64,000 bases of DNA from NCBI GenBank assembly GCA_002256245.1, contig NKIU01000002.1, positions 186,001 through 250,000 on the forward strand. The letters are read 5' to 3'. Origin of the DNA: Pseudorhodobacter sp. PARRP1 (GTDB lineage: Bacteria; Pseudomonadota; Alphaproteobacteria; Rhodobacterales; Rhodobacteraceae). Of this stretch, positions 180-19,900 are shown in pieces. Below the pieces are notes generated by a model that saw nothing but the letters and a program-made list of their open reading frames with translations, was not told the DNA's origin and made no database searches. The translations under genes and the position numbers were made by a program. Position 1 is the stretch's first letter. Each line of letters opens with the position of its first letter.

Positions 180-1388
180 CTATTCGACGATGGTTATCAC
201 CTTGCCATAGGGCGGCCTGGGCACCGTGTGGGGCACGGCCCACAGGATCGGGAACGACGGTGCAGGCGGCAGGGGCGCGTCCAGATCGGTGAGAATCACG
301 GCAATCGAGGGGCGGACCACGCGGGCCTTTTCGAACAGATCGTGGAAATCGGTGCCGCCGCCGGTGCGCAGCGGTGCGTCGCGCAGTTGAGCCCATCCGG
401 TCTGATCCAAGCGCGTCTGGGTAAAGACCGTCTCGTCAAATGCCATGAGATGCGCCTCGGCCCCGGTGCGGCGCACGATGGCTTCGGCTTCGCTGGTGAA
501 CAACTGCAACGTCTGCGCGTCGATGGAAGACGAGGTATCAAGGCCGATGACGATGCGGGGTCGGTAATCCAGCCGCTGCCGTCCCGGCTCGAACACCGGA
601 ACCGGGCTGCCCTGCTGTTCGGCATCGGCCATGCGGGCCACCCAACTGCCCGAGGGTCTGCGCCAGCTTGGGCGCGGGCGTTCGGTCAGCGCCAGCGCCA
701 GCAGGCCGCGCAGATGGATTTCCCAAGGCACGGTATCTGGCGCAAGATCGGCCAGAACCGCGCCAAGGCGGCCTATGCCGGTGCCTGCTTTGCGCCCCGC
801 CTCGAACGCACGCAGCACGTGGTTGCGCCAATCCGAGGTGGATTGACCTTTGCCCGCGTCTTCGGGCGCGCCACTGGCAAGATCAACCTCAAACCCTTTG
901 GTCTTGCCCCAGTCGCGCAAGCGCTGGGCGCGTTTGGGGTCACGGTGCAGGGCCATCGCTAGACGGTCCACATCCCATTGTTCCAGCGCGGCAATGGCGC
1001 TTTGCGCGGGCAGCCCGGCTTCGGCCAGCAGCGCGGTCAGGGTCACGGCGGGGCGGGGGATGGCGTGGCCTGCAAGGATCAGTGTCTCATTGATGATGCC
1101 ATCGGCGGCAAGGCCAAAAAGCGAGGGGTCAAATGTCGCGCCAAGTCGTTCGGCCAGACCGGCTTGGCGTGCGGAATGGCGCAGGGCCACGTGCAGCACG
1201 TGATGCGCCACAAGGCCCACCTGCTGGGGCAGGTCCAATGCGTCAAACGCGGGGCCGTAGATGATGACATCGCCCGCCGTGCGCGTGGCCCCGCTGCCGT
1301 CGCGATGCAGGCACCAGAGTGCGAGCACCGCCAGCGTCGCATCGACCTCGCCCAGATGCGCCAGCGCGCGGGCGGCGCGGGTGGTCAT
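180..1388 (-). CDS. VWA-domain protein with metallopeptidase-like N-terminal domain (DUF2201 type)
   Basis: The 402-aa protein has two parts. The N-terminal half matches the putative metallopeptidase domain usually paired with a VWA domain. Its zinc motif region is AHHVLHVALRH at residues 61-71, where family members normally have HExxH, so His replaces the catalytic Glu. The C-terminal VWA-like domain carries a good MIDAS signature, DTSSS at 284-288. Such proteins work with MoxR AAA ATPases, which are thought to act as chaperones that remodel targets or help insert cofactors. The start overlaps the stop of the MoxR gene by ATGA (1385-1388), so the two are translationally coupled. Cytoplasmic; no signal peptide. 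The target is unknown. The missing Glu suggests a binding rather than a peptidase role (inference). Confidence 0.85.
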   Translation of the reverse strand: MTTRAARALAHLGEVDATLAVLALWCLHRDGSGATRTAGDVIIYGPAFDALDLPQQVGLVAHHVLHVALRHSARQAGLAERLGATFDPSLFGLAADGIINETLILAGHAIPRPAVTLTALLAEAGLPAQSAIAALEQWDVDRLAMALHRDPKRAQRLRDWGKTKGFEVDLASGAPEDAGKGQSTSDWRNHVLRAFEAGRKAGTGIGRLGAVLADLAPDTVPWEIHLRGLLALALTERPRPSWRRPSGSWVARMADAEQQGSPVPVFEPGRQRLDYRPRIVIGLDTSSSIDAQTLQLFTSEAEAIVRRTGAEAHLMAFDETVFTQTRLDQTGWAQLRDAPLRTGGGTDFHDLFEKARVVRPSIAVILTDLDAPLPPAPSFPILWAVPHTVPRPPYGKVITIVE

Positions 1389-2488
1389 GGCAGGCCAGCG
1401 GCCCGACGCTCGGCGGCATAAGCGGCATAGGCCTCCGAGCGCGCAAAGGCCTCTTGCCAGCCGTTTTCAAGCGCGCGGGCGATCAACAACTCGAACCCAA
1501 AGCTGGCAAGTTCACTGATAGGCAGCCCGCGCTGCGCCAGACCGCTTTGCCCGCGCAAGTCGGCCAGGATTTCGATGGCGGCGGGCAGCGTGTCTTGCCT
1601 GACTGCGCCGACAAGGCCGTAAACCAGTGCCGTCAGGCCATGCAGGCTGCTTGGGTAAAGCGCGCTTCGTTCAGCGCGGGTGCTGCCCAACATCTGATCA
1701 ATATGGACGGTTGCTGCAATCTCGTCGGCCAGAAGCGCGAATTCGGCAGCGGCAGCGGTGCCTACGGTGCCTGCAATCATCACCTGCCGCAGGGCGCGGT
1801 CTGGCACGCTGCGCATGATCTGGCTTACGCGGGTCCAACTGCGCGGCGTGCAGGCAATCATCTGGCCGCGTCGCAGGCTGGCTTCGGTTGTCTCCAGCAG
1901 GTCTGGGCGGGTGCGGATGAAGGCCGCCACCGATGGATGGATGCCCGCGGGCACCGCATATTGGGTCAGCCAGTCGTCGGCGCTGGCCTGCACGATCATA
2001 TGGATCAGCCGGTCGCTGAGTGCTGTGCCCATATCATAGGCGATGGCACCATCTTCAACCCGGTTGCCCGCCGCCACGATCATCACGTTGGCGGGGAGGC
2101 GGTGCCGCCCGACGCGGCGTTCTTGCAGCAAGCCATAGACCGTGGGCTGAAGCGCGGGGGCGGCGGCGGTCAATTCATCCAGAAACAGGATGGCGGGGGC
2201 GTCGGTATCGGGCAGGTCTTCGGGGCGATACCAGACGGTTTTGCCACGCGCGTGATCGAAATACGGCAAGCCGCGCAGGTCTTGCGGCTCGATCGTGGTC
2301 AGGCGCAGATCGTAAAGTTCGGCACCGATCTGTTGTGCAAGGGTCTGCACCACCTCGGTTTTGCCCACTCCGGGGCGGCCATGCAGCATCCATGACGCTG
2401 TAAGGTCGCCCGCCATTTGCGCGGCCCATCCGGCCCGCAGCACCCGCAACGCTTCGCCCGCCGAAACCGTGGTGGCGTTCACACTCAT
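1385..2488 (-). CDS. MoxR-family AAA+ ATPase
   Basis: The 367-aa protein has a Walker A motif GRPGVGKT at residues 37-44 and a Walker B motif LFLDE at 101-105, within a MoxR/AAA_5-type core. MoxR ATPases form hexamers and act with VWA partners encoded beside them, as here. The upstream gene overlaps its start by ATGA (2485-2488), and its own stop overlaps the VWA start the same way, so the three genes form one translation-coupled operon. The substrate cannot be read from the sequence. The AAA call is secure; the biological role is open. Confidence 0.9.
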   Translation of the reverse strand: MSVNATTVSAGEALRVLRAGWAAQMAGDLTASWMLHGRPGVGKTEVVQTLAQQIGAELYDLRLTTIEPQDLRGLPYFDHARGKTVWYRPEDLPDTDAPAILFLDELTAAAPALQPTVYGLLQERRVGRHRLPANVMIVAAGNRVEDGAIAYDMGTALSDRLIHMIVQASADDWLTQYAVPAGIHPSVAAFIRTRPDLLETTEASLRRGQMIACTPRSWTRVSQIMRSVPDRALRQVMIAGTVGTAAAAEFALLADEIAATVHIDQMLGSTRAERSALYPSSLHGLTALVYGLVGAVRQDTLPAAIEILADLRGQSGLAQRGLPISELASFGFELLIARALENGWQEAFARSEAYAAYAAERRAAGLP

Positions 2489-3174
2489 GCCGTGACCTCG
2501 CGCTGTTCCAGAAATGCCGCAAGCCGGGAATGTGCCGAGACAGCCCGTGTCTCTTGCGCTACGTCGCGCAGATAGGTGTCGTCACGCTGGTTGACCACCA
2601 ACAAGTCGTGTTCGGTGAAATCGGCATCAAAGAGGCTGGTTTGCAGCACAGCGCGATCCTTTGCATCAAGGCTGAGCAAGTGCGGCGCGGGCGCTTCGCT
2701 TTGCACCGAAACGAGTGTCATCGGCGGGAAACGGGCGAGTTCGGATTGTTCGACCACAAGGCGCAATTGCCCCTCGGTCATGTCGTGCAGCGCCGCGATC
2801 CGGCGCAGACAGGCCCTTGCGCGAAATGTCAGCGTATCCAACCGGCGGGCGGCCTCGTCTTCGGTGATCGCGCGGGTGCGGGCGGATTTCGACAGCCGCA
2901 ACACTTTCAATTCGACAAAAGCCACCAAGGCGAGCATCAGGGCTGGCGCCTCCATCACTGGCAGCGCGAGGTCGCGCATAAAGAACGGCGTAAGCGCGAA
3001 CGGCAGCAGCGTCACCAGATACCGCAAAGCCTGAATGTCCACGATCAGCCGCAGCCATTGGCCAAAGCGCGCCCCACGCGGCAACAGCAAAACCCGCCCG
3101 AAGAATTTCTTCGGCAGGCTGCTTGCATCAAGCGCCCCTCGGTTCATGGTAGTCGCCTGCGTGACGATCAGCAT
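2485..3174 (-). CDS. Membrane-anchored protein of unknown function, first gene of the MoxR-VWA operon
   Basis: The start at 3174 (MLIVTQ) is chosen because GGAGAG lies four bases upstream; the frame is open further but without a better site. The 229-aa product has two hydrophobic segments, about residues 50-66 and 74-92, that could form a transmembrane hairpin. A polar, Arg- and Asp-rich C-terminal domain of about 130 residues follows. I do not recognise a family. Its ATGA overlap with the MoxR gene suggests that it is the membrane partner of the MoxR-VWA pair (inference). Confidence 0.7.
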   Translation of the reverse strand: MLIVTQATTMNRGALDASSLPKKFFGRVLLLPRGARFGQWLRLIVDIQALRYLVTLLPFALTPFFMRDLALPVMEAPALMLALVAFVELKVLRLSKSARTRAITEDEAARRLDTLTFRARACLRRIAALHDMTEGQLRLVVEQSELARFPPMTLVSVQSEAPAPHLLSLDAKDRAVLQTSLFDADFTEHDLLVVNQRDDTYLRDVAQETRAVSAHSRLAAFLEQREVTA

Positions 3175-3431: not shown

Positions 3432-5060
3432 TCAGGCTTGGCTGGTTGCGCACAATAGAAGGGCGCGCAGGGATACGATTGGCTGGCTGGCAGCATCCCG
3501 CAGCAGGCTTTTGCGTGGATGCCATGGGACCGCCTGCCGCAGCAGCGAGGCCGGATCGCTGTGCAGGAGGCTGACGATGGTGTCGGCAATGATCTGGCTG
3601 GCGGTCGGGCCGACGCGCCTGCCGTTTTCCAGCACCTGCGCTTCACATAGCAAATACAGCCAAGCGGGGGTTTCATCCAACAGGCCTAAAGCCTCAGCGG
3701 CGGCGGTTGGGTTGGCAAAGCCCTCGCCGGGGGAGTTGCGCTGCGGCATGGCTGCCCGCAGCGCATCGCGGGGCAAAAGCGGCACGCCGCAGGTCTCGGC
3801 CAGCTTTTGGCCAAAGGGCATCCGTCGATGAAAGCCGCGAAGCAGGTTGCGAAACAGGATCGAGCCCTGTTCCAGCATGTTTGCATTGCCCGCGACATTC
3901 AGCATCTCTGGGGCAAAATCAAGGTCGATCCGCTCGGCCCGACCGCTTACGTCGCCCTGTGCCGTGCCCGTCATCCGATCCCAGTCGATCACCCAGTGGT
4001 CGGGCAATTGCCGGTGCGGGCCTGCTTCGTCGCCCATCTTGCGCTTCGATGTGAAGGCAAACAACTGCCCCAGTGTCGCACCCTGTGGGGCGGTCGGGCT
4101 GCCGCGTCCGAAATTCGCGTTGTAATCGTAGGCGCGGCCAACCATCGAATGACCAAAGCGGAATGCGGCGGTGGTGAATTCCATCGGCACAGAGCCCGAA
4201 GGGATGCGGCGGGGCTGCCATTCGGACAGGGGTTTTGCCAGCACAGTCTGCGACAGGATCGCGGGCAGAACATCGTTCAGAATAAGCCAATGGTAGTGCA
4301 GCGTCACCAGCGCCCGCGCTTGGTCGAAAATCTGGTCCGCAGCGACGCCCTTTGCCGACAGGGCTTTGACCGCCTTGTTGTGGAACAGCATGAAGGCCAG
4401 ATGAAGCTGGCTGAGGATCAGGTTGCCATCGTTGCGACGGTCAGCGATCAGGGGTTGGCCATCCTCGCGCGGAATGTCGGGCGCGCCGCTGGCATGGACG
4501 ATCAGATCAGCCGGGGTCTTGTTGTCGTTGAAGGTCTGGTCTGCGGTCACGCTGGTCAGGCCCAAGCGAAACGCCGCCCCGTCATACAGCGCCGCGCTTT
4601 CAGGGTCTGACGGCCCATCCCCGTAAAGGCTGCCAAGCATCATCGGCCGGGCCTGTTCGTTGGCGATGTGGGACAGGATCGTCGCCACATCGGCGCGCCA
4701 GTCCTTGTTCAGCCCGATGGGATCGGCGCTGCCGATGATGCCCACCGGCGGCAAGCTGGCCAGATTTGCCGCGACACTGCCGACCGGGGCCGAGATGTCA
4801 TGGTTCAGGAACTGGCAGAAGTAGGTATAGGCGGCGGGCAGGTCGATGGTCAGTCCCGGCTTGGATGTGTCGGGGTAGGGCAGATGACAGGCGTTCTCGA
4901 AGTCTTTCAGGCGCTGAAGCGTCCCCGCGTCATCGGTGCCGTGAAAGCGCCCTGCCTCGGGGCCATCGGCGAGGTCGGGGAAAAGATACGAATAGCTTGA
5001 CCGCGTCACGGCGGGGGCAGACGTGGTCTGAAGGTCATGCGAACTGGTGAGGCGGGTCAT
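3432..5060 (-). CDS. Animal-type haem peroxidase (peroxidase/cyclooxygenase superfamily)
   Basis: The 542-aa protein carries the hallmarks of the animal haem peroxidase family. The distal His lies in QFLNHDIS (His about residue 87). A conserved Asp/Arg segment ADRRNDGNLILSQLH is near 206-220, and Glu and the proximal His fall in EFTTAAFRFGHSMV (His about 304). There is no signal peptide, so it is predicted to be cytoplasmic, unlike secreted peroxidases. Family members oxidise halides, fatty acids or aromatic groups. The start at 5060 is preferred because AAAGG lies eight bases upstream, and it falls 13 bp after the YcaO stop, so the two genes are very probably one operon. In that context it may oxidatively tailor a peptide (inference). 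It is the last gene of the unit. Confidence 0.85.
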   Translation of the reverse strand: MTRLTSSHDLQTTSAPAVTRSSYSYLFPDLADGPEAGRFHGTDDAGTLQRLKDFENACHLPYPDTSKPGLTIDLPAAYTYFCQFLNHDISAPVGSVAANLASLPPVGIIGSADPIGLNKDWRADVATILSHIANEQARPMMLGSLYGDGPSDPESAALYDGAAFRLGLTSVTADQTFNDNKTPADLIVHASGAPDIPREDGQPLIADRRNDGNLILSQLHLAFMLFHNKAVKALSAKGVAADQIFDQARALVTLHYHWLILNDVLPAILSQTVLAKPLSEWQPRRIPSGSVPMEFTTAAFRFGHSMVGRAYDYNANFGRGSPTAPQGATLGQLFAFTSKRKMGDEAGPHRQLPDHWVIDWDRMTGTAQGDVSGRAERIDLDFAPEMLNVAGNANMLEQGSILFRNLLRGFHRRMPFGQKLAETCGVPLLPRDALRAAMPQRNSPGEGFANPTAAAEALGLLDETPAWLYLLCEAQVLENGRRVGPTASQIIADTIVSLLHSDPASLLRQAVPWHPRKSLLRDAASQPIVSLRALLLCATSQA

Positions 5061-5073
5061 GGCATGGCCTTTG

Positions 5074-6105
5074 TCAATAGGGCTCGGGGAAGGTCGGGCG
5101 GTGGGCGGACGGACACAGTCGGCGAAAGCGGGTGGTGTCGATGGCGCCACCCATGGCGCATAGACCGGGGACCAGAACACGCATCGTGGGCATTGGGTCG
5201 CCCGGCAGGGTCAACTCGACAGCCAGCGCGCGCAGACCCAGATCGGCCAACCGCTGCAAAAGGTTATCTGGCGGGGCAGGCGTCGTCAGCGCCACAGGCC
5301 GGAACTGCGGCTGAACCATGGTCGAGGCGAAGGCGTCCCAAGCCAAGATTTCGGGGTCTTGGACCTGTCGCGCCATCTGCATTGCGACCTCGGTCTGGAT
5401 CATCTCGGTCACGGCGGACAAAGCCGCGTCGGCATGCAGGGGGCGCGCTGCTGTGCCAAGGGCGACATGGCGGCCATCGCGGTCTGAAGACACTGACGCC
5501 ACGACCGGCAGCCCAATGTCGGTGGTCAGATCGTAAAGCGTGGTGTTGCGGTCGCGGGCCTCGAGCCACCAGCACAGCCGTGGTTGGGAACGGTCAATCA
5601 CCTCTAGCGTCAAGGCAGAGGCCGGGGCACCGCCATGCCACCACAGAGCCAGCGCGTCACGTTCGATACATTCCCAAAGTGCCGTCAGCGTTGCGTCTTG
5701 CCGGGTCACGCCGGTGGCGCATCCGGTCGAGGTGGCATCACAGACCAGCGGTTCGCCCAACGCCGCGGCGCAGTCCAGATAGACATGCTGCGCGGAAATC
5801 GCTTCCATCTGTCCGCTCAGAAGATCGCGCGCGCGCACCATGGCAAGGCCCGCCTTGCGCGTCAGATCTGCCAGATGGCTTTGCGCGAGGCTGGCACGCA
5901 ACTCGATCGCCTCTGCACCCGTGGCAACCAAGGCCTGCAAGGCGGTCAGGCCACGCCCCGCAGGCAAACGGGGCCTGAGGCCCGTCACGTCATCACGCAG
6001 GGGCCAAGCGGCCGCCAGAAAGACCGGACAGTCGGCTGCATCTATGGGCACAAGCTGAAAGTCCTGTGCCAAGGCGCGCGTGAGATGGTCAAGGGTCTGT
6101 GTCAT
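5074..6105 (-). CDS. YcaO-domain protein (candidate peptide-backbone modifying ATPase)
   Basis: The 343-aa product shows YcaO signatures. An N-terminal AGRGLTALQALVATGAEAIE segment lies near residues 49-68, STGCATG is at 126-132, and the ATP-binding motif TALWECIERDA is at about 141-151, followed by LWW. The C terminus ends RPTFPEPY, a proline-rich tail reminiscent of the PxPxP end of azoline-forming YcaOs. YcaO enzymes use ATP to activate peptide amides, making azolines, thioamides or amidines. No E1-like/Ocin-ThiF, dehydrogenase or TfuA partner is encoded nearby, so it would act alone or with an unknown partner. Starts at 6105 and 6111 are both possible; 6105 has GGGG eight bases upstream. 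SARP-type repeats lie 70-86 bp upstream. It is followed after 13 bp by the peroxidase. Confidence 0.85.
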   Translation of the reverse strand: MTQTLDHLTRALAQDFQLVPIDAADCPVFLAAAWPLRDDVTGLRPRLPAGRGLTALQALVATGAEAIELRASLAQSHLADLTRKAGLAMVRARDLLSGQMEAISAQHVYLDCAAALGEPLVCDATSTGCATGVTRQDATLTALWECIERDALALWWHGGAPASALTLEVIDRSQPRLCWWLEARDRNTTLYDLTTDIGLPVVASVSSDRDGRHVALGTAARPLHADAALSAVTEMIQTEVAMQMARQVQDPEILAWDAFASTMVQPQFRPVALTTPAPPDNLLQRLADLGLRALAVELTLPGDPMPTMRVLVPGLCAMGGAIDTTRFRRLCPSAHRPTFPEPY

Positions 6106-6174
6106 GGACATGACCCCATAGAAAGCCCGGCACAAGCCGCGATCAAGCGGCGATTGCAGCGTGCGTCCCGGCGT

Positions 6175-6191
6175 TTCACGCTGGGTTCACG
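6175..6191 (-). promoter_or_regulatory. SARP-type heptamer direct repeat upstream of the YcaO gene
   Basis: Read on the minus strand, CGTGAAC and CGTGAAA occur as two direct repeats with an exact 11-bp period (TTCACG on the plus strand at 6175-6180 and 6186-6191). SARP regulators with BTAD domains bind heptamer direct repeats spaced 11 bp apart near the -35 region, and such a regulator is encoded at 6647-8617. The site lies 70-86 bp upstream of the YcaO start and also upstream of the divergent gene at 6254. The binding assignment is inference; the repeat itself is plain in the sequence. Confidence 0.6.
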
Positions 6192-6253
6192 CTGGTCGCA
6201 AATAGTGGCGCCATGGATGCCGAGGAGCGGCGTATAAACAGGAGAGATGCAAG

Positions 6254-6634
6254 ATGGTGGGGTTCTTCAGGCTGAAAAGCGGCGCGCTGGTTGATCAGCG
6301 CAACACCGGCGAAGCGATCATTCGGCTGATGCGCAGCGTGGGCGATGAAAGCGCCGGTTCGGAATGGGCGGCGTTCAAGGCCGATCCGAAAACCTGGCTT
6401 TTCAAGGCCGGATACAGCTATGACGGCCCCGGCGCAGGCCCGAATGGCGAGGTTCCCGCCGATGTCACCTTGATCCCGGTCTGCGACACGGAAGACACGA
6501 TGCATGTCCGCATCCCGTGGAAAGGCGTGCTGGATGTGCCCCACGAGGTGCTGGACGAGCCGACCTATGGCGCGCCGGGGCCGAACCGCTTTCCTGTGCT
6601 TCTGGCGCGGTATTTCATGCGGAAATGCCGCTAG
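6254..6634 (+). CDS. Conserved-looking 126-aa protein of unknown function in the YcaO cluster
   Basis: The gene starts with ATG at 6254 behind a good GGAGAG seven bases upstream, and is transcribed divergently from the YcaO gene across a 148-bp region holding the SARP-like repeats. The product begins MVGFFRLKSG, contains aromatic and Gly/Pro-rich stretches (YSYDGPGAGPNG), and ends YFMRKCR. It has two Cys and no signal peptide or membrane segment. I do not recognise the family. Its position suggests that it belongs to the YcaO system, perhaps as a small partner or leader-binding protein, but nothing in the sequence proves this. It ends 12 bp before the convergent regulator gene. Confidence 0.65.
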   Translation: MVGFFRLKSGALVDQRNTGEAIIRLMRSVGDESAGSEWAAFKADPKTWLFKAGYSYDGPGAGPNGEVPADVTLIPVCDTEDTMHVRIPWKGVLDVPHEVLDEPTYGAPGPNRFPVLLARYFMRKCR

Positions 6635-6646
6635 CCCTTAAACATT

Positions 6647-8617
6647 TCAGGGCGCGCCCGCCATCTGGCGGGCCAGCCTGAGACCCGTCAGAACCTTGTC
6701 GCGCCCTTCGGGCCAGGCGATTGGCAACACATCCAGCAGCCAGTCTTCCAGCGCATCATCATCGGCTGGGCGCGCGCCCTCCCAGCGCGCCGTTGTCAGG
6801 GCTACAAAGTAGCGATAGGCCTCGGCCGCCTCAGAGGGGCGGTCTAGGTGGGCAAAGGCCGCAGCCACCAGCGCCGCGCGATCCGGAAAGCCGTCGCGGC
6901 ATTTCTGGGCAAGTGCGATCATTGCCTGAAGGTCCGAGGCCATGAAATGGATGATGGACAGGTAGTCGGTATAGTATTCGGGATAGATTGGATTGGTGCG
7001 CACCGCTTGCAGGGCAAGGCTGCGGGCATCGTCGATATGGCCCAGCATGGCAAGGCCACAGGCTGCGGCGATCAGCGTCTCGGAATCGTTGGGGTTCAGA
7101 TCAACCGCCATCCGAAAATGCGTGTTCGCCCGCTCGGATGATCGCGCGATCAGCCAGTTCCACGCCACGCTGACGTGACAGCGCGAGTCGTATGGATCTA
7201 GTGCGATGGCCTCTTGGGCGTAACGGAAGGCCGTTGCGCAGTCCTCCTTGCGGTTGGGATAGCCGGGCTGGATCAGCCCCCGCGACGACAGGATTTGCGC
7301 AAGGCTGGACCGACTGCCCGCAAGGCCTGGGTCCAGCGCGATGGCCTGCAGGAACAGGGCCTCGGCTTGGGCATCGGCCTCTACGGTCCACAGGCGCGAG
7401 AGTTGATGGCCGCGCAGCCACAGGTCGTGGGCGGCGCGGTTGCCCGACGTGCTGCGGGCATGGCGCAACAGCGTGATGTGGTTGACCTGTGACGCCAGAT
7501 TGGCCGCCACCGCACCTGCGACCGAAGAACTGATCTCTTGCAAAGCGTCTTCGGCCACCGGGTAAAGGTTTGACCAGACCTCGGACCCATCGCGGCAGTC
7601 GATCAGAGAGACAAACAGCTTGCCCGTGGTGCCGCGCCAATCAAGCACGCAATCGACCGCGAAATCGGCGTCGATGGCACGCCCCATCGCGGCGAAATCC
7701 ACCGCGCTGGCCGAGTCGTATCCAGCCGAGGGCCAGGGAATGACAATCCAGCACCGAAAGCGCGACAGGCAGGTCTTGGCCAGAAAGGCAAAGCCCTCGG
7801 CCAGATAGTCTTTGCTGGCATCGGGATAGCGGGTCAGCGGCGGTCGGATGGTGATCCGGGGTGGGCCGCTGCGCGTGGGCAACGGCGCACGTTGCAGCGC
7901 GACTTCGCCGCCCTTGATCGCCACCAAAAGCGCGTTAGAGGCCTCGCTGGGCTCGCTGTCCAATTCATCGGCCAAAGCCTGTTCCAACTGCGCGAATTGG
8001 CGCAGGGCAGCCGATTGGTCGCCGCGCAGCGCATGAAACCGCATCAGGTATTGATGGGCCAGCTCGTGGCTGGGTTCGATCCGCACCAGTTCGTCCGCAT
8101 AGCGCGTGTCGGGGAAGGCATTGGCCGCGATCAGGTCTTCCAGGCGATCGGTCAGCGCCATGGTCAGAGTTGAGCGAAGATGTGAGCGTTCGATCTGCAA
8201 CCAGGCCTCGAAAACCGGGGCACTGGGTTGGGTGGCACCGAACAGCTCACCCTGCCACAAAGCCGCAGCGGCCAAAGGGTCACCCCCGGCGATCAGGTCG
8301 CGAAACCGCAAGACATCGACGCCAAAGGCGTCACGCCGCAGTCCGACGGTGAAACGGTCGGTCTCGATCAGACGGGCTTCGGACCCCAAGACCTCGCGCA
8401 ATTCCTTCAGGGCTTGACGCAGGCTACTGCGGGCCAGGGCTTCGGGTGCTGGGTCCCACAGCAGCGAGGCCAGTCTTTCGCGGTTCATCTGGAAATTCGG
8501 ACTTAATGCCAATAACCCGAGAAGACAGCGCGCCTTGCGCGTGCGGAAAACCAGCTCCTGGCCCGAGACCAAGTGCACCGCCCGACAGGCGCCCAGCAGC
8601 TCCACTTGGATCAGCAC
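6647..8617 (-). CDS. BTAD/SARP-type transcriptional regulator with TPR C-terminal half
   Basis: A GTG start at 8617 is chosen: AAGG lies eight bases upstream and the product then begins (M)LIQVELLGACRAV, as expected for this family. The 656-aa protein has an OmpR-like winged-helix domain (about 1-85, with the TRKARCLLGLLAL helix) and a BTAD all-helical domain (about 90-240). A middle domain resembles that of CadC/adenylate-cyclase-like regulators, and TPR-like helices fill about 400-640. SARP proteins activate secondary-metabolite genes by binding 11-bp-spaced direct repeats, which are present twice in this cluster. It lies 100 bp downstream of the exporter gene on the same strand, so it is probably part of the peptide-exporter transcript. 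Confidence 0.85.
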   Translation of the reverse strand: MLIQVELLGACRAVHLVSGQELVFRTRKARCLLGLLALSPNFQMNRERLASLLWDPAPEALARSSLRQALKELREVLGSEARLIETDRFTVGLRRDAFGVDVLRFRDLIAGGDPLAAAALWQGELFGATQPSAPVFEAWLQIERSHLRSTLTMALTDRLEDLIAANAFPDTRYADELVRIEPSHELAHQYLMRFHALRGDQSAALRQFAQLEQALADELDSEPSEASNALLVAIKGGEVALQRAPLPTRSGPPRITIRPPLTRYPDASKDYLAEGFAFLAKTCLSRFRCWIVIPWPSAGYDSASAVDFAAMGRAIDADFAVDCVLDWRGTTGKLFVSLIDCRDGSEVWSNLYPVAEDALQEISSSVAGAVAANLASQVNHITLLRHARSTSGNRAAHDLWLRGHQLSRLWTVEADAQAEALFLQAIALDPGLAGSRSSLAQILSSRGLIQPGYPNRKEDCATAFRYAQEAIALDPYDSRCHVSVAWNWLIARSSERANTHFRMAVDLNPNDSETLIAAACGLAMLGHIDDARSLALQAVRTNPIYPEYYTDYLSIIHFMASDLQAMIALAQKCRDGFPDRAALVAAAFAHLDRPSEAAEAYRYFVALTTARWEGARPADDDALEDWLLDVLPIAWPEGRDKVLTGLRLARQMAGAP

Positions 8618-8717
8618 TATCTCTGCCTTGGTCCGTTCCCCAGAAGGCAAAGACTGCACCCGGATCGCCCGTGTTTCAACAAGCGATTGCGGCGCGCATG
8701 GTTTTGCAGAAAGGTTG

Positions 8718-9605
8718 CTAGGCCTTTGCCTGTTTGGCAGGCAGCGCGGGAACTCGGGCCGCCACGGCCACGCTGAGGATGATGAACAACGCCCCCATGC
8801 TGCGCACCGCGTCCAGAGACTCGCCCAGGACGATGGCAGCGAACAGGGCGCCGAAGACCGCCTCGGCGCTGACCAGAATCGCCACCGTGCTGGCCGCCAG
8901 ATGCTGTTGTGCAATGGCCATCAAGACATAGGCCAGCCCTTTTGACACCACCCCGATCATCAGGATTTCGGGCAGGGCAGCAAGAAGCGCGCCCCAAGTG
9001 GGTGGGCTGCTGAACCAAAGGCTGGCAAGGGCGCAGACCCCGCCGCACACGGCCAGTTGGACACAGGTCAACAGGGCCGGGCGATGATAGCGCATGGCAT
9101 AGGCGCCGACGGCGAGCGTCCACATCGCAAAGCCCGCCGCCGACGCCAGCGACAGGATGTCGCCAGACGACAGACCCGCCCAGTTCGCCCCCGCCATCAG
9201 AAAGATGCCGAACAATGTCGCAAGGCTGGCGGGCCAGATCGCCAGCGGCACGCGATGGGCAAGAAACACCCAGCCGAGGATCGGCGTCAGCACCGCCGAG
9301 GTGTTCACCAGGAACCCCGCATTGGCAACCGAGGTCAGCCCATAGCCAAATTGCATGACTGTGCTGGCAAAGGTGAAAAGCGCCGAAACCGCAAAAAGCA
9401 ACGGGCCCGACCCTTGCGCCTGCGGCAGCGGACCGCGCCCCTCGCGCCGCACCAGCGGCAAAAGCACCACGGCCCCGATAAGCGAGGTGATCGCGGTGGC
9501 CTGCCAGCCATCCAGATTTTGCAGAATGGTCTTTTGCGCAACGTTGCCAGAGCCCCAAGCAACGGCCGCCAGAAGCGCAATCGCGGTGGCTTGGTTCGGG
9601 CTCAT
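8718..9605 (-). CDS. EamA/DMT-family membrane transporter
   Basis: The 295-aa protein is almost entirely hydrophobic, with about ten transmembrane segments arranged as two EamA repeats (first half to about residue 140, second about 150-285). It ends in a short basic tail. DMT transporters export small metabolites, amino acids or their derivatives through the inner membrane. The start codon overlaps the stop of the 85-aa peptide gene by ATGA (9602-9605), so peptide and transporter are made together. That coupling makes it a candidate exporter or immunity protein for the product of the cluster (inference); the true substrate is not evident. Confidence 0.88.
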   Translation of the reverse strand: MSPNQATAIALLAAVAWGSGNVAQKTILQNLDGWQATAITSLIGAVVLLPLVRREGRGPLPQAQGSGPLLFAVSALFTFASTVMQFGYGLTSVANAGFLVNTSAVLTPILGWVFLAHRVPLAIWPASLATLFGIFLMAGANWAGLSSGDILSLASAAGFAMWTLAVGAYAMRYHRPALLTCVQLAVCGGVCALASLWFSSPPTWGALLAALPEILMIGVVSKGLAYVLMAIAQQHLAASTVAILVSAEAVFGALFAAIVLGESLDAVRSMGALFIILSVAVAARVPALPAKQAKA

Positions 9606-9859
9606 CCCACCACCCGGTCGGTTGTCGTGGCAAGAGCATGGGGCTGCGGGCCCAAAAGCCCGTGCGGCTCTGCGGAGGCTGTCGCCGTTGATACTGCGTG
9701 CATCGCCGTGCCCAGGTTGCAGCCCGAAACAGGCGTCTGCGTCAGGATGGCCAAGTCGCAGGGCCGTGCCGGGCCAAGGCCTTTGCCTGCAACTTGATCG
9801 GCGGATTTGGCGGCTTGGCGCTGGTCGGTCGCAAATGGGTTTGGGTTATCGTTGGTCAC
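9602..9859 (-). CDS. 85-aa Ser/Thr/Cys-containing peptide, candidate precursor peptide
   Basis: A GTG start at 9859 follows CAGGAG with a six-base spacer, an excellent ribosome site, although the frame is open further upstream. The 85-residue product begins MTNDNPNPFATDQRQAAKS. Its first half is charged and leader-like. Its second half holds two Cys (34 and 47) and many Ser/Thr, including TQTPVSGCNLGT and VSTATAS, then GLLGPQPHALATTTDRVVG. It has no Trp or Tyr and no signal peptide. Cys, Ser and Thr are the residues YcaO cyclodehydratases modify. The stop overlaps the exporter start by ATGA. Together this fits a RiPP precursor, but no family match is known to me and the role is inferred from context. 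Confidence 0.6.
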   Translation of the reverse strand: MTNDNPNPFATDQRQAAKSADQVAGKGLGPARPCDLAILTQTPVSGCNLGTAMHAVSTATASAEPHGLLGPQPHALATTTDRVVG

Positions 9860-9915
9860 GAAAGGCTCCTGTCGGGAAAGGGCATTGAAATGATGCCCCA
9901 GTCTTCGACCACCGC

Positions 9916-9942
9916 CGTGACCGCGCCGTGAGCGCGACGTGA
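9916..9942 (+). promoter_or_regulatory. Triple 11-bp-period direct repeat between peptide and secreted-protein genes
   Basis: CGTGACC, CGTGAGC and CGTGAAA start at 9916, 9927 and 9938, an exact 11-bp period. The core CGTGA is the same as at the YcaO promoter. It lies upstream of both the minus-strand peptide operon and the plus-strand gene at 10107. This is the expected layout for a SARP (BTAD) activator site. Orientation relative to the secreted-protein gene matches that seen at the YcaO promoter. Confidence 0.6.
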
Positions 9943-10003
9943 AACCAACGCCCGGTTTCGGGTCAGCGACCTTCACGCAGCAGCGCTTCAATTTACCGGA
10001 GAC

Positions 10004-10020
10004 TTCACGTCGATCTCACG
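10004..10020 (-). promoter_or_regulatory. Second SARP-type repeat pair upstream of the peptide operon
   Basis: On the minus strand GCGTGAG and ACGTGAA contain CGTGA twice with an 11-bp period (TCACG on the plus strand at 10005-10009 and 10016-10020). Orientation relative to the peptide gene is the same as that of the repeat before the YcaO gene. A single TTCACG also occurs at 9972-9977. It is probably the activator site of the peptide-exporter-regulator operon; binding is inferred. Confidence 0.5.
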
Positions 10021-10106
10021 CAGCGTGCTGATCCTGATGCCAAGCCCCGGATTGCCTCTCAGAAGCCGCGCCGAGGCGATTTTCACTTTTTTCAAAGGTT
10101 CTTGAA

Positions 10107-10409
10107 ATGAATATGAAATCCGCTGTTCTGCTTTGCCTTCTCGCCTCGCCCTGCCTTGGCGATACCATCAACGCCACGACCTGCCCGTTGAGCGGTCCAT
10201 TGAACGAAATGTCGAGTCCAGCGACCAAAGACTGCCAAGTCCATCGCCTCGCCTTTCGCGACGCCCTTCGGGGCTGCATGGATCGCCTTCAGGACCCGGC
10301 CAAACACCGCACCGCTCGACTGCCTGCGGGCAATGCACAAACCAGCCGGTCCCGGTTTCTGATCTGCTATGCCGCGGCGCACAAGTCGATGGATGTCGCA
10401 CCGCATTAA
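10107..10409 (+). CDS. Small secreted Cys-containing protein of unknown function
   Basis: The start at 10107 follows AAAGG with an eight-base spacer. The 100-aa product opens with MNMKSAVLLCLLASPCLG, a clear signal peptide with likely cleavage after residue 18. The mature part of about 82 residues holds four Cys (in TTCPLSG, KDCQVHR, RGCMDRL and LICYAA), so two disulfides are possible in the periplasm. I do not recognise the family. It is divergent from the peptide operon and shares its repeat-bearing control region, so it may be a secreted partner or an immunity factor (inference). A strong hairpin terminator follows directly. Confidence 0.6.
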   Translation: MNMKSAVLLCLLASPCLGDTINATTCPLSGPLNEMSSPATKDCQVHRLAFRDALRGCMDRLQDPAKHRTARLPAGNAQTSRSRFLICYAAAHKSMDVAPH

Positions 10410-10415
10410 GCTGTG

Positions 10416-10440
10416 ACGCAGGGCGCCCGTAGCCCTGCGT
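10416..10440 (+). terminator. Hairpin terminator after the small secreted protein gene
   Basis: A perfect 9-bp stem, ACGCAGGGC (10416-10424) and GCCCTGCGT (10432-10440), encloses a 7-base loop seven bases after the stop codon. Only a weak T-rich stretch (TGCTTCTTGC) follows. Confidence 0.7.
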
Positions 10441-10602
10441 TGCTTCTTGCAGGTTGGTGTCCCCCCGATCTGTTCTTGACCGACGGCTTTGGGCCGGGCG
10501 CGTCGATGCAATTTCTGTCGGTATCAAGGATCGGGGACGCTTGCGCGCATCGGTGGAAGCCGGTCAGACATCGGCGACGCGGAGGAAAAATCCAAAAATC
10601 GG

Positions 10603-10619
10603 TGTAGAAAATATCTACA
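10603..10619. promoter_or_regulatory. Palindrome TGTAGA-N5-TCTACA, operator-like
   Basis: The perfect 6-bp arms TGTAGA (10603-10608) and TCTACA (10614-10619) flank AAATA. The right arm touches the ATG of the weak ORF at 10619. It resembles a dimeric repressor site or a small hairpin; there is no regulator next to it and the target is unclear. Confidence 0.3.
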
Positions 10620-10864
10620 TGACGCCGGCGGATATTGAGGCTTTTCATAAGGGATATGTGACGGTTCCAACCTTGGCGGCAGAGGACGGACAATCGATTC
10701 CGCATACGCGCGCGGCCTTGAAGCGACCGGTTTTACTCGTTTTCTCGCTGGAGGGCCAAGATTTCGGGCGTCTTTTCCTGCGCAAAGATGGTCAGGCGGC
10801 TGCTTTGTTCAAAACTGATCGTCGGCGTAGCGTTGCCCGGAAAAGGTCGATTAAGTGCCAATGA
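10619..10864 (+). CDS. Possible small ORF, 81 aa, unsupported
   Basis: An ATG at 10619 opens an 81-codon frame (MTPADIEAFHKGYVTVPTL, basic C-terminal end). No ribosome site is seen near the ATG, and no family is recognised. The middle (KRPVLLVFSLEGQDFGRLFL) reads like protein, so it may be a decayed gene fragment. It lies in an isolated stretch between the peptide cluster and the cyclitol operon. Confidence 0.22.
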   Translation: MTPADIEAFHKGYVTVPTLAAEDGQSIPHTRAALKRPVLLVFSLEGQDFGRLFLRKDGQAAALFKTDRRRSVARKRSIKCQ

Positions 10865-11468: not shown

Positions 11469-12539
11469 TCACAGCAACAGCCGGTGCGAAGTAACCGGCG
11501 AGAGGCGCACCATATCGGCGGTCGGGTGATGCGGGCGCGGGCGGACGGCGATCTTTTGCGGCTGGCCGGTGCGGGCTGCGGTTTCGATGGCGATCAGCGC
11601 CAGCATATCGGCCAGACCTTCTTCGCCATCGGCTTCAGGCGGCTTGCCCGAGGTGATGCAATCGCTGAAATAGGCCATCTGTGCGCCAAAATGATCGGTT
11701 TGCGGAAAGGCGATGTCGCGCGTGACGCCGTTCTGGCGCAGCCGCAATTTCATCGCGCAGTCGGCTTTGAAACCGGGGTCCATCTCGATATCGCCGGTTG
11801 ACCCGATCACCCGGTAATTATCGACGCTGCCCGCGCCAAAGCTGCTGACGAATTGGGCGATGCCACCCGACGGAAAGCGCAATGTGACGGCGATGGTTGC
11901 CTCTATCTCGGCAAAGCGGGGATCGTCTTTGGGCTGGATGACGGTTGCGGTGGCCTCAACGGGTTCTTCGGCAAAGATATGGCGCGCGGCGTTCAGGCTA
12001 TACACCCCAAGATCTTGCAGCGGCCCGCCCCAATGGGCGGCTTTCAGGCGGTGGTTGCCAAGGGTGGTCTGAAAGCTGAACACCGATTGAAAGATCAAAG
12101 CTGTGCCGATGGCGCCGTCGCGGATCAGATCCAGCAGGGCGACGGTGCCGGGTTCGTTATGGAGCCGGTAGGCTGTCATCAGAAAAACTCCGGCCTGATC
12201 AGCAGCGGCGATCATCGCCTCGGCATCCGCGACGGTCGTGGCAAGCGGCTTTTCCACCAGAATATGCTTGCCCGCGCGGGCGGCGCGGATGGTGTAGTCG
12301 GCGTGCATGGAATTGGGCAGCGCGATATAGACCGCGTCAATGCTGTCAGATGCCAGCAGCGCATCGTAATCCTGATAGCTTACCACCTGCGGGATGTTGT
12401 GAAACGCGGCCAGTTTTGCGCCTTTTTCAAGATCGCCCGTGACAATGGCTTCGATGGTGGAATTGCCGCTTTGTGCGGCACCCGGCAGGAAGGATTCCTG
12501 TGAAATCCAACCTGCGCCGACAACTGCGTATCTGATCAT
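11469..12539 (-). CDS. Gfo/Idh/MocA-family NAD(P)-dependent oxidoreductase (first of three)
   Basis: The 356-aa product starts at 12539, since AGGA lies nine bases upstream of that ATG and directly abuts an earlier one. A Rossmann motif VVGAGWIS is at 6-13, and the family EKP signature with the catalytic Lys is at 96-98 (HILVEKPLA). The C-terminal Gfo-type domain includes DLGVYSLNAARH. Such enzymes oxidise sugars and cyclitols at a ring hydroxyl. It is the last gene of a six-gene minus-strand operon (13 bp after the preceding gene), beside iolD/iolE, so a cyclitol or sugar dehydrogenase role is likely. The substrate is unknown. Confidence 0.88.
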   Translation of the reverse strand: MIRYAVVGAGWISQESFLPGAAQSGNSTIEAIVTGDLEKGAKLAAFHNIPQVVSYQDYDALLASDSIDAVYIALPNSMHADYTIRAARAGKHILVEKPLATTVADAEAMIAAADQAGVFLMTAYRLHNEPGTVALLDLIRDGAIGTALIFQSVFSFQTTLGNHRLKAAHWGGPLQDLGVYSLNAARHIFAEEPVEATATVIQPKDDPRFAEIEATIAVTLRFPSGGIAQFVSSFGAGSVDNYRVIGSTGDIEMDPGFKADCAMKLRLRQNGVTRDIAFPQTDHFGAQMAYFSDCITSGKPPEADGEEGLADMLALIAIETAARTGQPQKIAVRPRPHHPTADMVRLSPVTSHRLLL

Positions 12540-12552
12540 TTGAAACATTCCT

Positions 12553-13542
12553 TCAGGCGTAAAGCGCAGGGCGCGGCGGGTAAGTCAGGGTGATGCGGCC
12601 AGCATTGCCCATGCCAGCATTGCCCATGCCAGCGACGATTTGCTCGGCGGTTGACGTGGTGACAAAGCCATCCCAAGCGCTTGCGCCAGTGGTCTGGCCC
12701 GCCCGCGCAGCATCAACCCACGCCTGCATTTGCAAGCGGTAGGCTTCGGTAAAGCGCGGCACCCAGTTGGACGGGAAGCCAAAGCTTTGGGCGGCGGAAA
12801 GGTTGGTCAGAATGCGGGTTGGGGCGGCCATTTCCACCGTGCCCGCGCGGCCCACCAGCTGCGCATGCACGTGATAGCCGTAGGTGGCGTTCATAAAGAC
12901 TTCGGTCGAGACGATCTCGGCCTTGTCGGTCTGCATCGTCACCAGCATCGGATCGCCGCCGGGGGCCGCGGTGACTTGGGCGTTGATCATCTCGGAGCCA
13001 AGCAGCCAGCGCGAAATGTCGATTTCATGCACGAAAGAGTTCGTCACCGCCATCGCCCCGGTGAACCATGCGGGGGCTGCGGCGTTGCGGTGGATGTTGT
13101 GCAGCAGCACGGGGGCGCCGATGTTGCCCGCGATCCGGGCGGCCTGCATTTCGGTATAGGCCGGATCAAAGCGGCGCATGAAGCCGACCGTGACCAGACG
13201 CCGCCCCAGCGCCACTTCGGCCTGCACGATGTCGAGGCCCTCGGCGGCGGTGGCGGCGATGGGCTTTTCGCACAAGCAGGGCTTGCCCGCCGCAAGGCAG
13301 GCCAGCGCGTATTGGGCGTGGGTGGCGTCGGGTGATGCGATGACAACCGCCTGCACCTGATCGGAATTGATCAGCGCAAGGGCGTCGGTAAAAACAGCCG
13401 CTCCTTTCGCCGCAGCGCCGGCGCGGGCTGGGTCGGCGTCACAAACGGCGGCCAGATGCGCGCCGCTGGTGGCGTCACGCAGCAGACGCGCGTGTTCGGC
13501 CCCCATCACGCCGGTGCCGATGACGCCGACGGCAAGGCTCAT
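12553..13542 (-). CDS. Inositol 2-dehydrogenase-like Gfo/Idh/MocA oxidoreductase (second of three)
   Basis: The 329-aa protein has a Rossmann motif GTGVMG at 9-14, EKP at 92-94, and the FVHEIDISRWLLG stretch typical of myo-inositol 2-dehydrogenases (IolG type). That reaction makes 2-keto-myo-inositol, the substrate of the iolE product encoded in this window. Near the C terminus GMGNA is repeated (15-bp tandem repeat at about 12601-12630), where relatives have a single copy, so a slip duplication is likely. The ATG overlaps the preceding gene by four bases. It is the best iolG candidate among the three paralogues, though specificity is not proven. Confidence 0.85.
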   Translation of the reverse strand: MSLAVGVIGTGVMGAEHARLLRDATSGAHLAAVCDADPARAGAAAKGAAVFTDALALINSDQVQAVVIASPDATHAQYALACLAAGKPCLCEKPIAATAAEGLDIVQAEVALGRRLVTVGFMRRFDPAYTEMQAARIAGNIGAPVLLHNIHRNAAAPAWFTGAMAVTNSFVHEIDISRWLLGSEMINAQVTAAPGGDPMLVTMQTDKAEIVSTEVFMNATYGYHVHAQLVGRAGTVEMAAPTRILTNLSAAQSFGFPSNWVPRFTEAYRLQMQAWVDAARAGQTTGASAWDGFVTTSTAEQIVAGMGNAGMGNAGRITLTYPPRPALYA

Positions 13543-14657
13543 TTCACATCCAGCCAGCTTTGCGATTTCGACGAATGTTGGATGGTTTCCACAAGCACCT
13601 GAATCCGCAGGCCAGCGCGGAAGTTGAAGGGTTCCGGTGCTTTGCCTGCGATGGCGTTGATGTAGCCTGCGACCTCGATCGCCTTGAGGTCGTTAAAGCC
13701 GATCTGATGGCCTGCGGCGACGCAGAACAGGCCATAGGGCGCGTGGTCGGGCGAGGCCTCGATCCGGCGGAAGCCTTGGCGGCCTTTGGCATCAGAGGTG
13801 CTGAAGTAGTTGATAACGTTGAAATGTTCCTGACTGAACGCCAAAGCGCCCTTGGTGCCGTAAACTTCAAAATCATGCTGCATCTTGCGGCCTGTGGCGA
13901 TCCAGTTGCCCTCGATTGACCCCGTGGCACCATTTTCAAAGCGCAGGAACGCGCGGCCAATGTCATCCACCGTGACGGCTTTGCGGCCACCGCGCCCATC
14001 CGGGCGTTCAGAAATCATCGTCACGCAATCGCCCATCACGCGGGTGATCGGGCCGCAGAGGAATTCCGCCGTGGCGAGGGCATGGCTGCCAATATCGGCC
14101 AGCGCCCCACCGCCTGCGGGATCGTGGCGGAAGGTGTAGTTGCCCGAAGGATCGGCCATGTAATCTTCGCAATGGATGCCGCGATAACCGCGGATCTCGC
14201 CAAGTTCTCCGGCGGCGATCATGTCACGCGCCAGCGCCAGCATCGGGTTGCAGAGATAGTTGAAACCGACCTGGGTTTTCACGCCCTTAGCCTCGGCGGC
14301 GAGGGTCATTTCCAAGGCATCGGCGGCCATTGGGGCGAGGGGCTTTTCGCAATAGACATGCTTTCCGGCAGCAATCGCCGCCAGCGACATTTCCTTGTGC
14401 AGCGCGTTCGGGGCGGTGATCGAGACCAGATCAATCTCGGGGTTGGCCATGATGGTGCGCCAGTCGGTCGTGGCATGGGCAAAACCCAAAGTCACACGGG
14501 CGCGTTCGGCGGCTTCGGGGGTGATGTCGGCGACGGTGTGCAGTTCCAGATCGAACGGCAGTTCGAACACGCGCGGGGCTGACGTGAAGCCGAACACATG
14601 CGCCTTGCCCATGAAGCCGGTGCCAATCAGGCCGATGCGGAGTTTTGGTTTGCTCAT
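13539..14657 (-). CDS. Gfo/Idh/MocA-family oxidoreductase (third of three)
   Basis: The 372-aa protein begins MSKPKLRIGLIGTGFMGKAH (nucleotide-binding GTGFMG) and carries the EKP motif in VYCEKPLAPMA. The long C-terminal domain includes DIGSHALATAEFLCG and a YGTKGALAFSQEHF segment, as in scyllo-inositol and glucose-type dehydrogenases. It overlaps the downstream gene and the upstream hydroxyacid dehydrogenase gene by ATGA on both sides, so it is fully coupled. Together with its two paralogues it suggests interconversion or oxidation of several cyclitol isomers (inference). Confidence 0.87.
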   Translation of the reverse strand: MSKPKLRIGLIGTGFMGKAHVFGFTSAPRVFELPFDLELHTVADITPEAAERARVTLGFAHATTDWRTIMANPEIDLVSITAPNALHKEMSLAAIAAGKHVYCEKPLAPMAADALEMTLAAEAKGVKTQVGFNYLCNPMLALARDMIAAGELGEIRGYRGIHCEDYMADPSGNYTFRHDPAGGGALADIGSHALATAEFLCGPITRVMGDCVTMISERPDGRGGRKAVTVDDIGRAFLRFENGATGSIEGNWIATGRKMQHDFEVYGTKGALAFSQEHFNVINYFSTSDAKGRQGFRRIEASPDHAPYGLFCVAAGHQIGFNDLKAIEVAGYINAIAGKAPEPFNFRAGLRIQVLVETIQHSSKSQSWLDVK

Positions 14658-17962: not shown

Positions 17963-17967
17963 TATCG

Positions 17968-19899: not shown

Positions 19900-19900
19900 T

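Follow-up and report, generated by a model that had tools for sequence, protein, structure and literature searches.

NHLP-type TOMM clusters, as described in sections of two papers (Haft et al. 2010, PMC2887384; Cox et al. 2015, PMC4603692), combine a nitrile-hydratase-like leader peptide with a YcaO cyclodehydratase. The locus considered here lies in a window of 64,000 nucleotides (the whole stretch of DNA that was analyzed) and appears to represent a mode of protein-tail modification that has not been described. We know of no animal-type haem peroxidase in a characterized RiPP class, and a search of the literature found no paper on the pairing of YcaO with a haem peroxidase; the claim of a sequence-only reading of this DNA, that the pairing is new, holds as far as the searchable literature goes, and the pair proves to be conserved together with a BTAD- or cyclase-type TPR regulator. 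On balance, it seems rather probable that these genes encode a dedicated protein-tail modification system, in which a small protein is a RiPP precursor and the YcaO enzyme, followed by the haem peroxidase, acts on its tail.

The inventory drawn up in that reading (YcaO and haem peroxidase genes 13 bp apart, a BTAD regulator, an unrecognized 126-aa gene, a secreted Cys protein, and common repeats in two control regions) was borne out. The animal-type peroxidase (542 aa; 3432..5060, minus strand; PF03098 [An_peroxidase] 1.5e-13) lies downstream of a stand-alone YcaO on the same strand (5074..6111, minus strand; PF02624 6.7e-36), whose 345 aa are counted from an ATG; an alternative upstream TTG start would carry the gene to 6135. 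Across an intergenic region with a SARP-type direct repeat of 11-bp period (6175..6191, minus strand) is the gene for the 126-aa small protein (6254..6634, plus strand), tail to tail with that for a BTAD (SARP-like)/Trans_reg_C/TPR regulator of 656 aa (6647..8617, minus strand; PF03704 3.8e-14, TPR). Then follow an accessory EamA-type transporter (8718..9605, minus strand; PF00892 2.9e-27), an 85-aa ORF of 258 bp that overlaps it at ATGA (9602..9859, minus strand), and an accessory small secreted Cys protein of 100 aa, the start of which resembles a signal peptide by eye (10107..10409, plus strand).

The set of YcaO, peroxidase, small Cys-ended protein and BTAD/cyclase-TPR regulator occurs in 25 genomes, all of them Alphaproteobacteria, where most of the searching was done. 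It is spread over several families, and gene order and strand differ between the groups (A to D) while the set itself is preserved, and this speaks against passive linkage. In the loci of groups B and C that were read, the peroxidase adjoins the small-protein gene; the two are fused in one genome (G130), the fused small-protein part being 30-38% identical to seven free ones (E down to 8e-25), and in one genome the YcaO is located away from the rest of the set. Profiles of the small proteins found one match in each of five linked peroxidase loci and a match in 1 of 33 loci counted as unlinked. That locus, G234 (L049), holds a regulator, a group-C small protein, a peroxidase and a divergent YcaO, and adjoins group C in the peroxidase tree, where it is labelled unlinked; the trees, group-C alignment and 24-tail table treat it as outside the set. 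When families within about 7 kb were clustered around 20 loci (leaving out L057, L062, L112, L170 and L171), those of the regulator, the peroxidase and the YcaO were the only widespread ones; none beyond the set was common to more than five, the next commonest being ABC-transporter ATPases (5/20). The same clustering identified no RRE or E1-like partner, and neither an FMN dehydrogenase nor the E1-like/docking partner of a TOMM (BCD) cluster was among the shared families; nor did the loci show a conserved exporter or protease. Loci L002, L057, L062 and L112 were read by tblastn or as stop-to-stop frames, the gene caller having chosen the wrong strand. In MAG contigs, the frames of the L007 YcaO and regulator and of the L003 regulator are broken into pieces. 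Among the 20 YcaO records listed (of 45) and the 39 peroxidase records in a plasmid collection, Rhodobacteraceae QY30 is the only one with both genes close, and a Paracoccus denitrificans record carries the two far apart. Matches to PADLOC numbered zero for seven window proteins, and an anti-phage defence system was dropped as a candidate.

Both enzymes retain the residues expected of their families. The YcaO belongs to its superfamily by PF02624 and by the ExxE, ExxERD and ExxQ motifs, which bind ATP and Mg through their acidic residues and are invariant in all 10 proteins aligned; it is the one match to PF02624 in the source genome. Against the PDB, the YcaO group profile, which includes two group-D members that lean towards fused azoline formers, is nearest to azoline-forming TruD, LynD and MusD (2e-69 to 3e-64), with a far weaker match to MJ1094 (6e-32). 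A YcaO clade uniting groups A, B and C is weakly supported (0.605), and group D falls outside it; the L007 YcaO was omitted from the alignments, its longer piece being used in the tree. The window peroxidase matches PF03098 and has the distal and proximal His of the animal haem peroxidases: Q83, H87, R209 and H304 are invariant in 12 of 12 aligned members, drawn from groups A and B only, and align to the matching residues of solved lacto- and eosinophil peroxidases. These are the distal Gln/His, the catalytic Arg and the proximal His of such enzymes. The fused G130 peroxidase is just below the Pfam cut-off (24.3 vs 25). Since the set-linked peroxidases do not form one clade in their tree, we claim no single origin for the pairing.

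The likely substrate of the YcaO, judged from sequence, is the 126-aa protein and not the 85-aa ORF. The 126-aa gene is conserved in 7/7 close relatives, with a gene-caller coding score of 27.7 and a dN/dS of 0.17 (window vs L002). Its product has no curated NHLP, Pfam or PDB match; TIGR03793 does not match the window protein, and the best of 10 relatives reaches 12.3 bits (E 0.12, cut-off 50.9). In profile comparisons, group A resembled NHLP leaders more closely than shuffled controls did (above all 60 column shuffles, over only 23 columns), as did group D (above all 40) and, weakly, group C, but not group B, whose small proteins give no match above shuffles. The NHLP-like stretch of the window protein comprises codons 66-88, EVPADVTLIPVCDTEDTMHVRIP (6449..6517, plus strand; hhalign Prob 84), and scores 36.8 in hhalign, against a maximum of 16.0 among 60 shuffles. 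Since group B lacks an NHLP match and profile comparisons of A with C, A with D and B with C score no better than shuffles, a shared origin of all four small-protein groups is unsupported, and a common ancestor was dropped. The window protein ends in LLARYFMRKCR, within which we propose a mini-core, FMRKCR (6614..6631, plus strand; Cys125 codon 6626-6628). The small proteins span 123-183 aa with a conserved tail of 6-8 residues; those of other groups are 14-21% identical to the window protein (10 compared), and the tail is the most constrained part. All 25 tails end in [AG]-x6-C-x(0-3), an ending found in 22 of 405 called genes, 17 of these 22 being small proteins or the fusion; by itself the motif is unspecific in GC-rich DNA, and a closed frame of at least 90 codons bears it in 12 of 33 "unlinked" peroxidase loci, 11 of which have no small-protein profile match. 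The tails lack a Gly-Gly site followed by a hypervariable core: RY, TI, DY, HH or similar stands there, and the tail is conserved.

A homologue of the regulator is present in all 20 gene-called loci compared, and those of groups B and D bear a class III cyclase-type domain (Pfam, one of each). Direct repeats spaced by 11 bp are typical of SARPs. GTGA-N7-GTGA lies between YcaO and the 126-aa gene in 8/8 close loci, and the 4.35-Mb genome has three copies of the exact 17-bp pattern, each of them at this locus. GTGA/TCAC pairs with the 11-bp period begin at 6176, 9917, 9928 and 10005, and a fifth such pair is found farther along the window, at 20494. The intergenic region that separates the EamA operon from the secreted Cys protein contains three 11-bp-spaced copies (9917..9943, plus strand) and a second repeat pair (10004..10020, minus strand); among the loci with the secreted protein, the window, L002 and L003 show clear repeats beside it, L007 has imperfect ones (spacing 22 and 37), and L005 has none. 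The repeats are probable regulator sites, and their position in the promoters suggests that the same regulator controls EamA and the secreted Cys protein in the loci that have them. Neither was retained as a core component: EamA is found in the window, L002, L003 and L007 (3/7 close relatives) and was not detected in L004-L006 or G191, and the secreted protein (dN/dS 0.55), missed by the gene caller in the window, is supported by homologues in four of the seven (L002, L003, L005, L007).

From these features we infer a substrate role for the small protein, a thiazoline at its tail Cys and an oxidation by haem. The NHLP-like body would dock the YcaO, which would form a thiazoline by ATP-dependent activation of the backbone amide that precedes the tail Cys (FMRK-C-R in the window); the haem peroxidase would then oxidize the tail with H2O2, in place of the FMN dehydrogenase of a classical TOMM. 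Acting at the 11-bp direct repeats, the BTAD regulator would turn on the 126-aa gene, the accessory genes and the operon of YcaO and peroxidase. Since the tails have no Gly-Gly and no exporter or protease is common to the loci, most carriers, if not all, probably keep the modified protein inside the cell. The C-terminal Cys could instead bind metal. We also entertain, as a tentative speculation, that the small protein is never released and that its YcaO-modified Cys tail is an intracellular, peptide-derived redox group made or used by the peroxidase; the fusion of peroxidase and precursor would then be a one-protein form, a protein-borne cofactor made by RiPP chemistry.

The fusion, like the adjacency of peroxidase and small-protein genes in groups B and C, would also suit a small protein that is an adaptor, its Cys tail docking in the YcaO or the peroxidase while the target of the YcaO is the peroxidase or some other protein of the cell. 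YcaO enzymes that act on large proteins exist, as in the thioamidation of methanogen McrA, and MJ1094 is a distant match to our YcaO profile. We nevertheless think an adaptor fairly unlikely, since across groups otherwise so divergent it is the tail that is most constrained, groups A and D resemble NHLP leaders, which are known YcaO substrates, and 12 aligned peroxidases have no comparable shared tail. Thioamidation, or another non-cyclizing YcaO reaction at the tail, with the peroxidase consuming H2O2 or acting on sulfur and not on an azoline, is suggested by the fact that some stand-alone YcaO enzymes lacking an E1-like partner form thioamides. We judge it distinctly unlikely: the YcaO profile is nearest to azoline formers, the best model for the window YcaO alone is SagD-type TOMM (1.4e-30) over McrA-thioamidation (1.8e-14), and a TfuA-like family, the mark of YcaO-TfuA thioamide RiPPs, was neither among those shared in the neighborhoods of the 20 loci nor matched by the seven window proteins.

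The sequence-only reading had assigned the precursor role to the 85-aa ORF; this was not borne out, and the role passes to the 126-aa gene. The frame is open, ATGA-coupled to EamA and contains Ser, Thr and Cys, and the DNA around it can still be aligned to L002, but its coding score is weak (7.8, where the 126-aa gene has 27.7) and the sequence shows no conservation. Its dN/dS is 0.99 over 72 aligned codons (window vs L002), the syntenic L002 ORF has no Cys, and tblastn found no convincing homologue in L002-L007, the sole match (L007; 26 aa, E 0.40) being at chance level inside the YcaO region. An APC-type permease ORF is ATGA-coupled to EamA in L003, and the last codons of the 85-aa ORF match the end of that permease (93.5% over 31 nt across the junction). 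By these sequence comparisons the ORF is an eroded permease relic, and it is highly improbable as a precursor. Chance clustering of unrelated genes has next to no probability; animal-type haem peroxidases are common in the family (43/295 genomes), but the set recurs in 25 genomes from several families, with its genes reordered, two of them fused in one case, and with promoter repeats of its own, and this excludes chance.

If the protein-tail modification system is real, haem-peroxidase chemistry joins YcaO-based peptide modification, and a long precursor is used whose core measures just 6-8 residues, with neither an exporter nor a protease conserved. E. coli could serve as a host in which to reconstruct such a compact system, of two enzymes and one substrate, which also poses the question of RiPP chemistry inside the cell instead of for secreted compounds. 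The family was missed by the curated precursor models tested; the small-protein profiles found G234, which the YcaO search had overlooked, and YcaO with PF03098 and a small ORF ending in [AG]-x6-C offers a search rule.

The nearest described systems each share a part of this design. Like NHLP-type TOMM clusters, as the sections cited at the outset present them, the locus has a long precursor next to a YcaO, and an NHLP-like stretch ending in a beta-strand-like run and Pro occurs in groups A and D; unlike them, it has conserved tails of 6-8 residues without Gly-Gly or a hypervariable core, and a haem peroxidase, and the loci do not share a conserved E1/docking partner, FMN dehydrogenase or ABC/HlyD exporter. 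With SARP/BTAD regulators the locus shares BTAD plus TPR and direct repeats of 11-bp period at likely target promoters, here in Alphaproteobacteria and, in groups B and D, with a class III cyclase-type domain. The cyanobactin heterocyclases TruD and LynD are the closest solved relatives of the YcaO profile and, in the alignments, are alike in their ATP-site motifs; their chains, which include an E1-like half, measure 775-781 aa, whereas the fully read linked YcaO proteins have 345-476 aa (336 aa in G234; that of L108 is truncated by the contig end). Lactoperoxidase, myeloperoxidase and peroxinectin have the distal Gln/His, catalytic Arg and proximal His of the window peroxidase, which differs from them in having no signal peptide (by eye) and in its linkage to YcaO.

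All of the genes named in the sequence-only reading are present at the locus. A haem peroxidase gene (3432-5060, minus strand) is followed by the YcaO gene (5074-6111, minus), 13 bp upstream of it, a gene for a 126-aa small protein (6254-6634, plus), a BTAD-TPR regulator (6647-8617, minus), EamA (8718-9605, minus), an 85-aa ORF (9602-9859, minus) ATGA-coupled to EamA, and a secreted Cys protein (10107-10409, plus). This YcaO is the only one in the 4.35-Mb genome by a PF02624 search. Three minus-strand genes adjoin the locus at 180-3174; by sequence they resemble genes for a VWA protein, an ATPase of the MoxR type and a small membrane protein, and none of the three fell into a cluster with a gene from another compared locus. 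The neighbors at 11469-21606 look as though they serve sugar or inositol catabolism, resembling genes for Gfo/Idh oxidoreductases and for IolD- and IolE-like proteins.

The proposed pairing of YcaO with a haem peroxidase recurs, together with the small protein and the regulator, in 25 genomes when all samples and close loci are counted; this four-gene family is real, and it is undescribed in the literature searched. A scan with the window's YcaO yielded six close loci in the Rhodobacterales (L002-L007), all six with regulator, 126-aa gene, YcaO and peroxidase in identical arrangement, and genome G191 is a seventh close relative with the quartet. On the MAG contig L007, the frames of YcaO and regulator are broken (9674-10800), through sequencing error or decay. 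The secreted Cys protein occurs in L002, L003, L005 and L007 among these seven relatives, and EamA in L002, L003 and L007.

The 85-aa ORF, originally put forward as the modified peptide, was rejected as a precursor. Its dN/dS between the window and L002 is 0.99, against 0.17 for both the 126-aa gene and YcaO, 0.15 for both the peroxidase and EamA, and 0.55 for the secreted Cys protein. The peptide frame is not kept in relatives: the ORF at the equivalent place in L002 has 73 aa and no Cys, and in L003 a 497-aa permease, APC-type by eye, shares an ATGA overlap with EamA and has the C-terminus AATDRVAG, where the window ORF ends TTTDRVVG (junction DNA 93.5% identical over 31 nt). The 85-aa ORF is a relic.

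In a sample of 295 genomes from the window's family, YcaO matched in 16 and the peroxidase in 43, and nine carry the quartet (G000, G191, G204, G275, G137, G138, G031, G130 and G234). The quartet was not seen in 15-20 kb of sequence from each of G228, G245, G247 and G029, nor in YcaO with 1.5-kb flanks from G059, G078, G209 and G227. In the class sample (YcaO in 45 of 385 genomes), 8 of 44 YcaO genomes tested have the peroxidase, which lies beside YcaO in five (G386, G389, G523, G565, G641); in the phylum sample (YcaO in 21 of 299), 9 of 20 tested have it, linked in four (G916, G904, G863, G848). None of five non-alphaproteobacterial genomes tested had a linked pair. In G916 (L165:3295-10857), two different haem peroxidases flank one small protein, regulator and YcaO. 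G927 (L170 and L169), from the phylum sample, keeps peroxidase, small protein and regulator together, its group-C-like YcaO being 1.3 Mb distant, so the quartet may be able to work split.

In distant quartets a small ORF of 123-183 aa adjoins the peroxidase, YcaO or the regulator. The ten distant proteins compared are only 14-21% identical to the window's, and the small proteins fall into four groups, the window and its close relatives forming group A. All 24, and that of G234, have a Cys within the last four residues and an Ala or Gly seven places ahead; the tails read LLARYFMRKCR (group A), YLLATIFLNRCQ (B), RIGDYTISFCA (C), LMLAHHLIRSCASC (D) and FRVGDYTLNYCR (G234). The small protein of group D (L110, L111) has two or three tail cysteines. 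Among 405 called genes of quartet loci the motif occurs in 22, of which 17 are small proteins or a fusion and five are others; it is no rarity in raw frames, where 82 of the 2641 stop-to-stop frames with 70 or more codons in 21 of the loci carry it, real ones included. For comparison, the four group profiles were searched against every frame of 33 peroxidase loci where no YcaO linkage was known. Twelve of these have a closed frame of at least 90 codons with the motif, 11 of them without a profile match, and the single locus matched, L049 of G234 (1.3e-12), then proved to be a carrier; the same scan recovered the small protein in five of five linked loci. The G234 quartet (L171:4616-10958) has a divergent YcaO that was passed over by the YcaO search, matching the YcaO profile at 1.9e-18. 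In G130 (L064:12421-14448), a single ORF encodes both peroxidase and small protein (a frame of 675 codons, giving 663 aa from its ATG). The peroxidase domain, recognized only by reading the locus, has diverged strongly and scores 24.3 bits with PF03098, slightly below the cut-off of 25; the small-protein part matches seven of eight other group-C proteins (30-38% identity, best E 8e-25), the eighth, that of G389, reaching no better than E 0.25. The searches used can overlook such carriers, and the G234 example hints that more exist.

YcaO retains its acidic ATP-site motifs, and the peroxidases of groups A and B retain the distal Gln/His, Arg and proximal His. The nearest PDB entries to the YcaO profile of groups A-D are the azoline formers TruD (2e-69), LynD (5e-68) and MusD (3e-64), with MJ1094 next at 6e-32; the window's YcaO alone scores highest with the SagD-type model of TOMM, a known YcaO-based cluster type, yet under the model cut-off. 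In a tree of 60 YcaO sequences, one clade with support 0.605 unites groups A, B and C and the displaced copy of G927 (A with B 0.919, C with the G927 copy 0.995). Because the YcaO of group D falls outside this clade and the quartet peroxidases are scattered over several places in their own tree, the pairing may have arisen more than once. The group D loci adjoin genes that we take to be lpt/rpoN.

All eight close loci have GTGA-N7-GTGA, with an 11-bp period, in the stretch that separates YcaO from the 126-aa gene; of the remaining periods between 8 and 25, just one, 23, is seen, in a single region. An 11-bp period is known for SARP sites. The pattern CGTGANNNNNNCGTGAA has three copies in the whole genome, at window positions 6175, 9927 and 10004, and its reversed control none; a looser GTGA/TCAC pair has one further copy in another part of the window, at 20494. 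Three TCAC copies with the 11-bp period flank the secreted Cys protein gene, also in L002 and L003, not clean in L007 and absent from L005. The regulator would presumably bind at these repeats, and since promoter-type repeats lie beside both, EamA and the secreted Cys protein probably belong to the regulon in this genome, outside the core. The regulators of groups B and D (L056-L060, L110, L111) have a class III cyclase-type domain at their start, seen with Pfam for L060 and L110 and judged by eye for the others, which hints at a different input signal.

The loci share a conserved set of genes, a conserved tail Cys and intact catalytic residues, and in the window's genome the promoter repeats are confined to this locus. 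We propose that the small protein is the substrate, that YcaO would cyclize at its tail Cys, and that the peroxidase would oxidize the cyclized product. The modified protein would remain in the cell, since within about 7 kb either side of 20 loci no family beyond the quartet is common to more than five (generic ABC-transporter ATPases in five; EamA-type, by that count, in three).

The literature searched, which left out most subscription papers and preprint servers, showed among the papers listed, by title or opening of the abstract, no pairing of YcaO with a haem peroxidase, no peroxidase with an NHLP (nitrile-hydratase-like leader peptide) or RiPP precursor, and no animal haem peroxidase in alphaproteobacterial gene clusters. 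In the accessible portions of three sources, an Acetobacteraceae survey (PMC8776678) reports a YcaO cluster and, apart from it, a Dyp-type peroxidase, and the word "peroxidase" is absent from a TOMM survey (PMC4603692) and an NHLP paper (PMC2887384).

Compared with ten NHLP leaders from G326 and G368, with column shuffles as controls, the group A profile aligned EVPADVTLIPVCDTEDTMHVRIP to EIPSAVSVTVVEDSPTHLHIVLP (score 36.8 against 16.0 for the best of 60 shuffles) and that of group D aligned over 71 columns (42.1 against 15.2); because these scores beat the shuffled controls, groups A and D are NHLP-like. Group C scored more weakly (20.2 against 15.4, above 40 of 40 shuffles), group B did not exceed its shuffles, and against the curated NHLP model the window's 126-aa protein and its relatives fall short of a match. 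Between groups, A-B exceeded 40 shuffles (22.0 against 19.2, 11 columns), D-C was level with the best shuffle, and A-C, A-D and B-C were not above theirs; common descent of the four groups is likely from gene context, sequence alone being insufficient. Where Gly-Gly is usual in NHLP, the small proteins have RY, TI, DY, HH or similar, and they conserve a tail of 6-8 residues after the NHLP cleavage register. A YcaO is described in PMC12455567 as recognizing NHLP by a protein-protein mode, which would fit a folded small protein as substrate. The family is, in short, a variation on YcaO/NHLP-type systems.
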